From positions 1-64,000 of the forward strand of contig CASFTJ010000001.1 in the NCBI GenBank assembly GCA_949297715.1: a stretch of DNA of 64,000 nt, given 5' to 3'. The first letter of the stretch is position 1. Each line of letters begins with the position of its first letter. The translations under genes were made by a program, and so were the position numbers. Shown here piece after piece: positions 7,451 to 59,850 of the stretch. Source of the DNA: an uncultured bacterium (GTDB lineage Bacteria > Cyanobacteriota > Vampirovibrionia > Gastranaerophilales > Gastranaerophilaceae). The notes beneath the pieces were generated by a model. It was not told where the DNA came from, did no database searches, and worked only from the letters and a program-made list of their open reading frames with translations.

Positions 7451-8854
7451 TTGAAAAAGGTAATATCAACAGCAATTATACTAAGTTTAGCGGTTATTCA
7501 AACAGCGCCATGTTTCTGTGTTGAAACGGCACAAACGAGCACCGCAACCCCAAAACAATTCAAAAGCATGGTTAAAAAAGACAAAAAAAATACAAGTGAT
7601 GATTACAAGTATGAATATGTAAATCTTGATTGGTGGAGTATTTTCAATGACGACCTTTTAAAGGGTTACATTGAGAAGGCGATAATGAACAATTACGATT
7701 TAAAGATGGCAACATTAAATGTTGAAGAATTTTATCAGCAGACAAGACTTCAATTTGCAAACGAACTTCCGATGGCTGCAGTCGGCGGCGGGCCTGCTTT
7801 AGTAAAAATGCCTGACAGCACAAGCACTGACGGAGTATTCGGACTTCCTTTTATAGTAAACTATGAAGCCGATATTTTCTTAAAGAACCATGACAAAACA
7901 AAATCTTCAAAAAAACTTTATGAAAATTCAAAATTTGATGAAAGAGCCGCTTATATCTCTATTGCAGGAGCAGTCGGCTCAACTTATTTGAATATTGTTA
8001 ATTTAGATAAAGCAATTGAAATCCAAACAGAAATAGTTTCATTAAGAAAAAAAATCTATGAACTTATGAAACTAAGCAACGACGAAGGTTTAACTTCGAC
8101 TGCCGATACGGTAAGAGCGAATAAAGCTTTCGTTAAGAGCGAAACTGATTTAACCGAACTTAACAAACAAAGAGAAATCCTGATTAACCAGATGTATGTA
8201 TTGATAGGAGAAAGTCCCGAAAGCGGGAAAACACTTGAAAGGAAAAAGCTTGATGAAATAACATACAATCATGCAATTCCTGATTATATAGAATCTGAAA
8301 TAATAATGCAGCGTCCGGATTATTTAAAAGCTGAAAACAGTGTTGAAAAAGCAGGGATTGATGTAAGAGTGGCAAAGAAAGAATTTCTTCCGACAATTAA
8401 CTTAACAGGTCTTGCTTTATTTAACACAAGCAATATCGGAGATTTATTTAATCTGAAAAATTCAATATATGCGCTTGGCGGTGGATTTTTGTTACCGTTA
8501 TTCACAGGCGGTCAAAGAGTTGCAAATTTAAGACTTAAAAAAGCGACCTATGAAAGAATTCTCCAAAACTACTATAAAACTAACTTAACAGCCATTCAGG
8601 AAGTTAATGATGCGCTTGTAAAGGTCAGAAAAGACAAAGAAAAAGTCGATCAAACTTTAAAACAGGCAAACCTTGAAAAAGCGGATTATAAATTTTCCGA
8701 AATGAAATACAGTGAAGGAACTATTTCTCTGTTGGATTTAATTCAGCAGAAAGAAAACTTGCTTTATATGGATCAGCTTGTAGCCCAGAATAAAGTGGAA
8801 TTTATGATTGACTACATCGGTCTTTATAAAGCAACGGGAAGCAAACTACAATAA
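7451..8854 (+). CDS. TolC/NodT-type outer-membrane efflux channel
   Basis: This 467-residue protein begins at a TTG with AAGAGG nine bases upstream. It has a signal peptide (residues 1-25) that ends near a Cys, so a lipoprotein form is possible. The body has the two-fold repeated long helices and short strands of outer-membrane factors. Examples are WWSIFNDDLLKGYIEKAI, NLDKAIEIQTEIVSLRK and the second-half FKLP-like region GGGFLLPLFTGGQRVANL. It would form the exit duct for EmrA-EmrB. A strong terminator follows the gene. Confidence 0.92.
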   Translation: MKKVISTAIILSLAVIQTAPCFCVETAQTSTATPKQFKSMVKKDKKNTSDDYKYEYVNLDWWSIFNDDLLKGYIEKAIMNNYDLKMATLNVEEFYQQTRLQFANELPMAAVGGGPALVKMPDSTSTDGVFGLPFIVNYEADIFLKNHDKTKSSKKLYENSKFDERAAYISIAGAVGSTYLNIVNLDKAIEIQTEIVSLRKKIYELMKLSNDEGLTSTADTVRANKAFVKSETDLTELNKQREILINQMYVLIGESPESGKTLERKKLDEITYNHAIPDYIESEIIMQRPDYLKAENSVEKAGIDVRVAKKEFLPTINLTGLALFNTSNIGDLFNLKNSIYALGGGFLLPLFTGGQRVANLRLKKATYERILQNYYKTNLTAIQEVNDALVKVRKDKEKVDQTLKQANLEKADYKFSEMKYSEGTISLLDLIQQKENLLYMDQLVAQNKVEFMIDYIGLYKATGSKLQ

Positions 8855-8945: not shown

Positions 8946-9045
8946 AAAAAAAAGCCGTCTTGTTTAATAAGAACGGCTACCAGACTTGGGGAGGAGGTAT
9001 GAAAAACTTTCGTTTTTCATATCTATATTTTCTTAGACGGCTTAA
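8946..9045 (-). ncRNA. Candidate small RNA with an exposed CCUCCUCCCC segment
   Basis: On the minus strand the region reads as a textbook small RNA. A 10-bp stem TATGAAAAAC closed by a GAAA tetraloop (9021-8998) is followed by unpaired CCTCCTCCCC (8997-8988). A terminator hairpin comes next, AGCCGT..CTT paired with AAG ACGGCT, ending in eight T (8978-8946). The GNRA loop and T-run both point to the minus strand. The C-rich segment is complementary to Shine-Dalgarno sequences, as in known anti-SD regulatory RNAs. The 5' end and promoter are not resolved. On the plus strand a 20-codon ORF from ATG 8999 is possible but less convincing. Confidence 0.6.
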
Positions 9046-9114
9046 AGAAAAAAATATTTAAAAATAATTGACAAATATCCTCCAAATGCAGTAGATTTCT
9101 TTTTATTAAAAATT

Positions 9115-9129: not shown

Positions 9130-9876
9130 ATGAAAGAAAATGAGAGAAATTACGAAGATTTTATTTCAACAGTAAGCCACGAATTAAGAACACCTTTGAC
9201 ATCAATCAGAGGATTTGCGCAGACAATGCTTGCATCGTGGGACAAGCTTGATGATGAAAGTAAGAAGAAATTTTTAAAAATCATTGAAGACCAATCAAAC
9301 AGGCTTATAAATTTAGTTGAGAACATGCTATCAGCAACCAAACTTTCTTTAAATAAGGATAATCTGATTTTAAAAGAAATTTATATAACACCTGTTGTAG
9401 AAACAGTTGTTCAAGTCGTAAAGAGCCAATATCCGGACAAAAAGTTTACTATAGCAATAGACGGTAAAACCCCGCCGATACTTGCAGACAAAGATAAATT
9501 CACTCAAATAATCACAAACATTATTGAAAATGCAGCAAAATACGGCGAAGAAAATTCTACAATAAACATAACAACAAATTTTTCAGGCTGCGATAATTAC
9601 ATATCAATAAAAATTCAAAACACAGGAATCGGAATAGCAGAAGAAGATTACGAAAAAATATTCACAAAGTTTTCGCGTCTTGATAATCCCTTGACAAGAA
9701 AAGTTCAAGGAAGCGGACTCGGGCTTTATATTACCAAAAACCTTACGGAAAAAATGGACGGAAAAATTTCTGTCAAATCAATTCCGGATAAGGACGGGAA
9801 ATATTTAACAACCTTTGAAATTTTAATGCCGGCAGGAGATGTTGAGAAACAAGCGAGGGCAAAATGCAATATGTAA
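9130..9876 (+). CDS. Soluble sensor histidine kinase (HisKA-HATPase only)
   Basis: This 248-residue protein has the full transmitter of a two-component kinase: the phosphoacceptor box FISTVSHELRTPLTSIRG with H17, the N-box IIENAAKYGE, the G1 box NTGIGI, an F-box (FTKFSRLD) and the G2 box GSGLGLYITK. There is no membrane span and almost nothing before the H-box, so it has no sensor domain of its own and would need a partner or another input. It overlaps the following regulator gene by 13 nt, which makes that protein its likely target. Confidence 0.92.
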   Translation: MKENERNYEDFISTVSHELRTPLTSIRGFAQTMLASWDKLDDESKKKFLKIIEDQSNRLINLVENMLSATKLSLNKDNLILKEIYITPVVETVVQVVKSQYPDKKFTIAIDGKTPPILADKDKFTQIITNIIENAAKYGEENSTINITTNFSGCDNYISIKIQNTGIGIAEEDYEKIFTKFSRLDNPLTRKVQGSGLGLYITKNLTEKMDGKISVKSIPDKDGKYLTTFEILMPAGDVEKQARAKCNM

Positions 9877-11251: not shown

Positions 11252-12029
11252 CTACCAAGGATAATCCTTTTTCATTTCCCAGCCGTCGTTTATTATCTTT
11301 GCCGCGCAATATGTTCCTGTACCACTTAAGCTACAGCTACTGTTTATTTCCGCTTGAGTTTTGTCATATCCATATGGTCTTACAATATTTTTGTCAAAAA
11401 ATACTTGAAATACAAATACATCTTTACCTAAAATATTTGGGGGCTTTATTCCGTTTAAGTCCACATAAACACTTTGACTGGATGAATATTTTGCTGTTTC
11501 AGAAATTTTATTACCGTCATCATCATATTCATATTCCCACCACATCATATTTATATAATATGCTGTTCCATCCATTGTTGTAAAATATATTCGACCTACA
11601 TAATACGATGTAACAATAGCCAAATTATATACGGACTTATTTATCTTTTTAAAAGGATAATTTATTCCATAAGGATATACACCACTTTTTGAAACCGTCG
11701 GGTTATTAAAATATGGAAGCCAGTATTGTTCAAAAAATTTTTTGGTTGCATCCGCATTCACCGTATCAGACGTCGAAAAATAAGCCCCACCGTTATCTTC
11801 TTGAGCTTGCAACACCATTTGACTTAACACTGTATAAGCTTTTTTTAATTGTGATATTGTTGCCTGCTTTTTATATTTACCGACAACAGTCGGCAAAGTC
11901 ATGGCAATAACAACACCCAATATCCCTAAGGTTATTAAAACTTCCGCTAATGTAAATCCAGCCTTTTTCCCTCTTAAGGAGCTATTCTCGGGTGCCCCCC
12001 CCCCCCTGTAATTCAATCATATCAAGCAT
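11252..12029 (-). CDS. Pseudopilin-like protein 1, out of frame because of a poly-G run (phase OFF)
   Basis: The pilin body carries the prepilin signature AGFTLAEVLITLGILGVV, then a long N-terminal helix and a C-terminus ending DGWEMKKDYPW. A good ribosome site (AAGGAG, 6-nt spacing) precedes ATG 12029. From that ATG the frame runs through a 12-G tract into TAG after GGC-ACC-CGA-GAA. With 11 G the ATG would be in frame and give a 258-residue prepilin with the leader MLDMIELQGGGAPENSS. The present in-frame start would be a TTG at 12016 with no ribosome site. The gene has its own strong promoter. Prepilin peptidase would cut before FTLAE. The switch is inferred from the tract; an assembly error in the run is the alternative. 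Confidence 0.8.
11995..12006 (-). repeat. Poly-G tract (12 G on the coding strand) in pseudopilin 1
   Basis: Twelve consecutive C on the plus strand lie between the start codon and the pilin helix. Runs this long are exceptional in such AT-rich DNA and are the classic substrate for slipped-strand mispairing. Eleven or fourteen G would put the upstream ATG in frame. Confidence 0.9.
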
Positions 12030-12064
12030 TTCCAGCTCCTTACCTTTTTCTATGCTACTCTTTT

Positions 12065-50826: not shown

Positions 50827-51607
50827 ATGAAAACTCAGACTATAGTAGAAACCCGCAGGGGGGGGGGGGGCAAACACCCGCTACGAGAGGCTTTCAGCAA
50901 ATAAAGCCTTTACACTCGCAGAAGTTCTCATAACTATCGGGATACTCGGTGTAGTTATCGCAATGACACTGCCATCTATAATAGGCAAATATCAGAAAAA
51001 AGTCACAGTCGAAAGATTAAAAAAAGCTTATACGGTAATATCACAAGCCGTAGCAATGTCCATTAAGGATCACGAAGAAGTAGAATATTGGGATTTTGAA
51101 CTTAGCGCACAGGAGTTTATGGATACTTATTTAAGTCCGCATTTCCAAAAAATTGCATCTGAAGAAGTTTCTTCTAATACAAACAAATATTCAAAGACTT
51201 ATGTATTGCCGGATGGCACTACCTTTTACGGCTGGATGGCCAAGAATCCTGCTCCTGAAAATCATGATGTAACAACTTTTTATCAAATAAATATAGATAT
51301 AAACGGAAAGCAAAATCCTAATCAATTAGGAAGGGATATTTTTGTTTTTTATTTATTCCCAATGAAAAATAGGGTATTTAATGGAGGACTAGGTAATATT
51401 GCTAAAAATGTGCCTAGGGCCGGATTATACCCAGATGGTTATGGTTATAATAGGGAAACTCTAAAAAATGATAGCTGGCGGGGATGTAATATTGATCCAA
51501 ATGGACAAGCTGCAAGTGGCACCTCTTTATCCTATTCCGCTCGTGCTTTTTGTACTGCCTTGATTATGTATGACGGGTGGAAAATTGCCGATGATTATAA
51601 CTGGTAG
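50827..51607 (+). CDS. Pseudopilin-like protein 4, out of frame because of a poly-G run (phase OFF)
   Basis: ATG 50827 has AAGGAG at ideal spacing, but after ten codons the frame enters a run of 13 G and ends at TAA 50902-50904. The pilin frame begins beyond the tract: AFTLAEVLITIGILGVV, a long helix, and the C-terminus DGWKIADDYNW. It has no ATG, GTG or TTG between the previous stop and the pilin helix, so the product cannot be made complete as assembled. With 12 G the ORF is a 259-residue prepilin whose leader includes RRGGGANTRYERL. The first in-frame ATG now is 50963, inside the helix. Confidence 0.85.
50858..50870 (+). repeat. Poly-G tract (13 G) in pseudopilin 4
   Basis: Thirteen G lie between the start codon and the pilin helix. 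Twelve G would restore the frame. Confidence 0.92.
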
Positions 51608-59105: not shown

Positions 59106-59850
59106 ATGAAAACCTTGAAAACACTGCTCAGAATGAATGGGGGGGGGGGCTAACCATTGTAAACACTGGCTTTCAGCCTTTACGCTTGCCGAAACACTTA
59201 TTACTATTGGAATTATAGGCATTGTTGCCGCTATGACTTTACCAGCTATTATTGATCAAAGACAAAAAGTTGTGACCGTCAACAGACTTAAGAAATTTTA
59301 CACAACTATGGAACAAGCCATCTTATTAACAGAAAAAGACAATGGAGAACTTGAATATTGGATGCCTACTCCGGATTTATACAATAATAGCGAAGGTTTT
59401 GAAAAATGGTTTAATATGTATTTAGGCAAACATTTCCAAATTATTCAAAGGAAAAAACTTGATGCCAAATATTATCAAATAGGTTTAATTGATGGAAGCG
59501 GGTTTGTTGCTTATATAAATTCTTATGGAACAATATTCTTCTTTTTCTGTATTGATCTAAAATATTGCGGGAAAGAAAAATATGACGGCAAAAATTCTTT
59601 TCTATTTTCTATCGCCCCAGATGCACAAGCAAATAATAGAATTAGATTTGTAACATCAAATACCGGTTCACAGCATGTGTCACGTGAATACCTTCTTGAA
59701 CGTTGCAAATATGGAGATAGCGACACCCCAGGAACAAGCATAAAAGATAAAAGGCATACTTGCGCAAGACTTATTCAATATGATGGCTGGCAGATTAAAA
59801 AAGATTATCCTTGGGATCAAATTATTGTTACGCCCGGTGATGGCGATTAA
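59106..59850 (+). CDS. Pseudopilin-like protein 5, out of frame because of a poly-G run (phase OFF)
   Basis: ATG 59106 follows AAGGAGG closely, but its frame runs through 11 G into TAA at 59151-59153. The pilin frame reads SAFTLAETLITIGIIGIV, then a long helix, several Cys and the tail DGWQIKKDYPWDQ. With 10 G the two join into a 247-residue prepilin with the leader end RMNGGGANHCKHWLSA. In the present phase a product could start only at ATG 59137, formed by the edge of the G-run, with no ribosome site. The strong upstream promoter is intact. Confidence 0.83.
59139..59149 (+). repeat. Poly-G tract (11 G) in pseudopilin 5
   Basis: Eleven G between the start codon and the pilin helix. Ten G would restore the frame. 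Confidence 0.92.

Follow-up and report, generated by a model that had tools for sequence, protein, structure and literature searches.

A short intergenic region of the window (the whole stretch of 64,000 nucleotides analysed here, from an uncultured member of the Gastranaerophilaceae) raises the question of whether its minus strand encodes a small RNA and, if so, how such an RNA is controlled and on what it acts. An earlier reading of the letters alone (the sequence-only reading) had placed a minus-strand small RNA at 8946–9045, between an efflux channel gene and a kinase gene. Both neighbours were confirmed and lie outside the RNA: a plus-strand gene for a NodT-family efflux outer-membrane protein (7451–8854, TIGR01845 over the cut-off) and a plus-strand histidine kinase gene (9130–9876, HisKA and HATPase_c), which is divergent from the RNA.

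Architecture and conservation of the RNA

Read directly on the minus strand, the RNA spans approximately 9028 to 8946 and comprises a 5′ hairpin, the linker ACCUCCUCCCCAAGUCUGGU and a terminator, which bears out the 10 bp stem, unpaired C-rich stretch and T-run described earlier. The probable transcript start and a short 5′ leader (9022–9028, placed by promoter spacing) are followed by the 10 bp 5′ hairpin UAUGAAAAAC-GAAA-GUUUUUCAUA (8998–9021, with the loop at 9008–9011), as seen by direct reading, folding and covariation. The 19 nt linker CCUCCUCCCCAAGUCUGGU (8979–8997) is predicted to be single-stranded, contains the C-rich stretch CCUCCUCCCC and an anti-Shine-Dalgarno-like CCUCCU, and is near-invariant across the order. 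Its 3′ flank is AGCCGUUCUUauuaaacAAGACGGCU and then the U-run, belonging to a terminator whose hairpin, AGCCGUUCUU-auuaaac-AAGACGGCU (8953–8978), is again evident from sequence, fold and covariation, and whose U-run (8946–8952) is seen in the sequence and in relatives. The RNA is probably 77–83 nt long, or about 80 bases. The fold of 8946–9030 has a z-score of −4.2, with none of 200 shuffles equally stable. With one mismatch allowed, the window holds a single occurrence of TACCTCCTCCCC where chance predicts 0.02, and the genome carries one copy of the RNA.

We assessed the structure in an alignment of 95 sequences that had itself been fitted to that structure, which is why its slid and shuffled controls matter. 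Standard pairs filled 93.7% of cells; shuffling lowered this to 76.5% and sliding to 56% or less. Both-side changes were present in 15 of the 19 pairs (10/10 of the 5′ hairpin and 5/9 of the terminator stem). The compensatory changes on which the sequence-only reading had staked itself were thus looked for and found. Independently of any alignment, the 5′ hairpin was better than its mononucleotide shuffles at z < −2 in 96% of 159 distinct relatives; its sequence varies freely while pairing is kept, with strong compensatory change. The linker is predicted to be mostly unpaired in the 159 relatives. Relatives found with the covariance model mostly show no change in the linker over 25 nt and few substitutions elsewhere, and invariance is near-complete for the 19 nt linker and the 5′ arm of the terminator; the position-wise logo is biased, because some of its sequences had been gathered by exact match to a linker pattern.

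The GNRA (GAAA) loop, which had been taken as a feature of the RNA and, together with the T-run, as fixing its strand, is not conserved: relatives carry UUUU, UUCG, UUAU, GCAA or longer loops. The T-run keeps its value for assigning the strand, and the promoter and covariation serve in place of the tetraloop.

Within Candidatus Gastranaerophilales, a first covariance model, built from five sequences, found the RNA in 346 of 383 genomes, representing 50 of 52 genera, and mostly as a single copy in genomes of the main family. A refined second model, built from 95 sequences and run on a second draw of genomes, found it in 276 of the 286 that belong to the order. Applied to about 96 genomes from other orders of the class, the refined model gave six matches at E-values of 0.001–0.05, which is within chance and no more than the cut-off predicts, and we therefore rejected membership of these orders. 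The covariance search for two stems and a conserved C-rich linker that had been proposed earlier thus returned matches across the order, in nearly every genome, with a linker that hardly changes.

Within the window's genus the RNA is present in 13 of 14 genomes, where stem 1 and the linker have a mean identity of 99% to the window, against 53% for the DNA 45–115 nt upstream. The remaining genome (G013) is 99% complete and is without the RNA; it is also without a close homologue of the kinase. In G001 (locus L013) about 90 kb of the same contig separate the RNA from the kinase gene. The RNA is still kept there; one U-A pair of its stem has become C-G, and its loop is UUUU. The neighbours of the RNA differ between genomes, the commonest being prs, kinase genes and others. 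Since the neighbours vary, the RNA is not the leader of one gene; cis-regulation of a neighbour is ruled out on this ground, and the trans-acting role proposed by the sequence-only reading is supported.

Outside the main family the RNA is often found in 2–6 copies per genome, some of them in tandem (L100, L102 and L103). One genome (G032; L100, at G032:C16:5968-6757) has three tandem copies at 362 bp spacing, and the same spacing separates copies in a record of Melainabacteria bacterium GWF2_37_15 (L224).

Searching Rfam 15 with the window and 20 diverse relatives gave no family over its gathering threshold, in keeping with the earlier placement of the RNA outside Rfam families. The best sub-threshold match, a PyrR-type attenuator, was rejected at 31.8 bits against a gathering threshold of 54. 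Viral contigs held no exact match to the RNA. Within the limits of the literature collection searched, we found no small RNA described in Melainabacteria. That the minus-strand RNA is a real, conserved and previously undescribed small RNA family, with a predicted transcript, is well supported: the order-wide conservation, compensatory changes, promoter and terminator strongly favour the small RNA that had been proposed. It would be the first small RNA, within the literature searched, for this group of uncultured cyanobacterial relatives from gut and environment, and gives an entry to post-transcriptional control in the non-photosynthetic Gastranaerophilales.

A sigma-28-type promoter

The interval 8946–9045 holds as RNA in its 3′ part, up to about 9028; its 5′ end is promoter. 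We considered a 112 nt fold in which AAGCCGUCU pairs with the terminator arm as an attenuator, and rejected it because conservation is lacking for this arm, whose bases are those of the −10 box. As AAGCCGUCU is a sigma-28-like −10 box that is not conserved as a pairing arm, the bases at approximately 9030–9060 are assigned to the promoter and not to the RNA.

On the minus strand, the −35 box TAAATATT (9053–9060; consensus TAAAGTTT, with TAAAG at 87–98% per position in relatives) is separated by 11 nt from the −10 box GCCGTCTA (9034–9041; consensus GCCGATAA). TAAAGTTT-N11-GCCGATAA is the published sigma-28 consensus (PMC2859248). The window copy, TAAATATT-N11-GCCGTCTA, is a weak match at 11/16, and relatives carry TAAAGTTT-N11/12-GCCGATAA upstream of the RNA at a mean of 12.4/16, compared with 9.9 for shuffles and the reverse complement (n = 159). 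The assignment of the promoter to the sigma-28 type is well supported by these motif scores.

Further upstream, the element GGAGGATATTT (9073–9083, minus strand) is a possible activator site, and its GRDGAKWT core starts 22 nt upstream of the −35 box. GRDGAKWT is found in 48% of 135 relatives (0.9% after shuffling), either about 11 or 21–22 nt upstream of the −35 box, and these two positions are about one helical turn apart. L013, which has no adjacent kinase gene, still carries the element. The sequence pattern suggests an activator binding site.

A FliA/WhiG sigma family match was present in all 383 genomes, 370 of them over the cut-off. In the window genome the FliA-family factor (G000:C1:184597-185259) has regions 2, 3 and 4, and reading by eye revealed no evident flagellar gene within about 5 kb of it. 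Flagella are patchy in the order Gastranaerophilales (PMC4040986, PMC5877343). With the sigma factor and the RNA near-universal and flagella patchy, the roles of both probably extend beyond flagella, and the RNA would be a concrete output of a universal FliA/WhiG-family sigma factor that most likely works outside flagella in many of them.

Further sigma-28-type promoters occur in the genus (L304, L318, L314, L316, L322, L331 and L315/L319), preceding genes for a glycine-rich 370-aa protein, LysM-like and EF-hand-like proteins and two short conserved ORFs; some precede genes common to several genomes. By sequence, these form a candidate sigma-28 regulon outside flagella in the genus.

Comparison with known small RNAs

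In its build, the closest analogue of the RNA is Yfr1, which has a freely changing 5′ stem-loop of 6–10 bp, an open stretch of 16–20 nt with an ultraconserved C/U-rich core, and a terminator hairpin (PMC2190773). Here too, two stem-loops flank an unpaired stretch of 16–20 nt and the second is the terminator; CUCCUC lies in the open stretch of both RNAs, and Yfr1 is near-universal in cyanobacteria, the sister group of the hosts studied here. However, the undecanucleotide that defines Yfr1, ACUCCUCACAC, is present in none of the 159 RNAs, whose linker is ACCUCCUCCCCAAGUCU, and we have not filed the RNA as Yfr1 for this reason. Where Yfr1 shows guaB/trxA synteny, the largest neighbour clusters here (among named neighbours only) are other genes. 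It is improbable, in our estimate, that the RNA is the Gastranaerophilales counterpart of Yfr1, both deriving from one ancestral RNA with core and promoter rewired in the fermentative lineage; if the two were related, Yfr1 would be dated before the Cyanobacteria/Melainabacteria split.

Sigma-28-dependent small RNAs are known from E. coli, in a set with MotR (PMC10578931), and from Campylobacter, as CJnc170/FlmR (PMC11187230) and CjNC1/CjNC4 (PMC4626219). The family as a whole resembles them in having a FliA-type promoter upstream and a FliA-family factor in the same genome, but the E. coli RNAs derive from UTRs whereas the Gastranaerophilales RNA is predicted to be free-standing, and in this order flagella are patchy while sigma factor and RNA are near-universal. 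CJnc230/FlmE of Campylobacter, a demonstrated repressor at ribosome-binding sites (PMC11187230), likewise has an anti-Shine-Dalgarno motif in an open stretch between two hairpins; it differs in being RpoN-dependent and processed from the flgE mRNA, and in its motif, CCUU. The rhizobial alpha-r14/NfeR1 RNAs, predicted to act at ribosome-binding sites (PMC10746234), share an unpaired, ultraconserved anti-Shine-Dalgarno motif (CCUCCUCCC) and variable stems, but have three hairpins and three motifs and belong to alphaproteobacteria. The nearest Rfam family of that group to appear, suhB/mmgR, scored 15.1 against a gathering threshold of 41. By analogy, the RNA may work like the sigma-28-dependent and the anti-Shine-Dalgarno small RNAs, and we claim common descent with neither.

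Proposed action of the linker

The RNA has the design of trans-acting pairing small RNAs: it is free-standing with a promoter and a terminator of its own, its neighbours vary, and its C-rich linker is invariant and predicted to be open. We lean, with moderate confidence, towards a free-standing trans-acting RNA under a sigma-28-type promoter whose linker pairs with Shine-Dalgarno regions and lowers translation. RNA polymerase with a FliA/WhiG-family sigma factor would start the RNA at approximately 9022–9028, and its own terminator would end it. The 5′ hairpin and terminator would shield the ends and keep the 19 nt linker open, leaving CCUCCUCCCC free to pair with the Shine-Dalgarno regions of several mRNAs, and this pairing would lower translation of the targets while the sigma-28-type regulon is active. 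We infer transcription, target pairing and repression from what the genomes hold, namely the conserved shape of the RNA, its promoter and terminator motifs, a sigma factor of the fitting family and a linker predicted to be open.

CCUCCU in the open linker is complementary to Shine-Dalgarno sequences and, by analogy with other RNAs of this design, pairing with Shine-Dalgarno regions is the likeliest mechanism. In the genus, however, TTGGGGAGG was found at the ribosome-binding site of only a few scattered genes, and GGGGAGG-N3-11-ATG was only slightly above its reversed control and in most genomes did not lie at orthologous genes. The candidate targets with these patterns (thyX-, dnaB-, pdxA-, FabZ-like and prepilin-like by sequence) were rejected, as they recur in 2–3 of 14 genomes and none is general. 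Over 54 genes of the window, pairing with start regions was no better for the linker (−8.0) than for shuffled linkers (−7.7, sd 0.4). The earlier proposal that the C-rich stretch blocks ribosome sites is therefore borne out as far as the open, near-invariant linker goes, but the start regions of the genus held no conserved target ribosome-binding site.

This same contrast, of a 19 nt linker and terminator 5′ arm that are near-invariant yet without a conserved mRNA partner, could also be explained if pairing with mRNAs were secondary and the linker served chiefly to bind a protein or as a decoy. Its partner would be a ribosomal or cold-shock-type protein, or another RNA, as Yfr1 and Yfr2 may pair. 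The several and sometimes tandem copies in other families also fit this reading. We hold it to be a minor possibility: no protein or RNA partner of the linker was identified, and pairing small RNAs are usually built in this way, with a C-rich linker left open between two hairpins.

Another reading directs the linker to homopolymeric G tracts, as in RepG of Helicobacter pylori, its all-C/U stretch tuning pilin synthesis through G11–G13 in prepilin leaders. RepG is a precedent for pairing of a C/U-rich single-stranded stretch with G repeats (PMC8295292), and such repeats are present in the window species. All three G/C homopolymers of at least 7 in the window lie in prepilin leaders with G on the coding strand, as do three of four in a further 195 kb of the window genome, and 9 of 11 homopolymers in the G011 sample are in prepilin leaders. 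When 206 gene leaders were ranked by net pairing, two of the prepilin poly-G leaders came first, at −18.7 and −15.9 kcal/mol (median −5.1), and CAGAC, which is complementary to GUCUG in the linker, precedes 5 of 15 G tracts where 0.25 were expected. The leaders with CAGAC are related paralogues, however, and poly-G pairs with any C-rich RNA. RepG differs in using its terminator loop; here the site would be a linker with U positions fixed across the order, though poly-G would tolerate exchange of C and U, and the tracts are candidate targets only. G repeats accompany the RNA in G000 and G011, but the G001, G140 and G026 samples have the RNA and no tracts before prepilin motifs, and G013 has G tracts and no RNA. 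Because the tracts do not track the distribution of the RNA, we keep poly-G pairing as an alternative and judge it unlikely as the main action; possibly it is a lineage-specific use of the RNA.

A small protein, from a plus-strand frame of 20 codons behind GGGGAGGAGG or a minus-strand frame of 18 codons through the linker, is very improbable. The plus strand does read GGGGAGGAGGTATG in most genomes of the genus, but its ATG is lost in L013 with a compensatory stem change, and the length and ending of the frame vary; on the minus strand, possible start codons are spread over the three frames, and in 58 of 153 relatives there is none nearby. Both frames were rejected on this evidence. AT-rich intergenic DNA readily yields hairpins with T-runs, but that two hairpins and a T-run came together by chance and without function is next to impossible and was rejected, as the arrangement persists, with compensatory changes, in about 50 genera, although the flanking DNA and the neighbouring genes differ.

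The prepilin-like genes themselves (FTLAEVLITLG motif) carry tracts of G11–G13 at 50858–50870 and 59139–59149 (plus strand) and at 11995–12006 (a C-run, with G on the minus strand), these being the only G/C homopolymers of at least 7 in the window. The tracts sit 22–33 nt past a start codon with a good Shine-Dalgarno sequence, and similar tracts, mostly G12, occur in other members of the genus, a pattern that suggests phase variation; G013 has tracts of G11–G13 at several places with no prepilin motif after them. In several prepilin leaders (11975–12045 on the minus strand; L463), the Shine-Dalgarno sequence AAGGAGCU is exactly complementary to AGCUCCUU just past the G tract, and the two are predicted to form a hairpin that would hide the ribosome-binding site.
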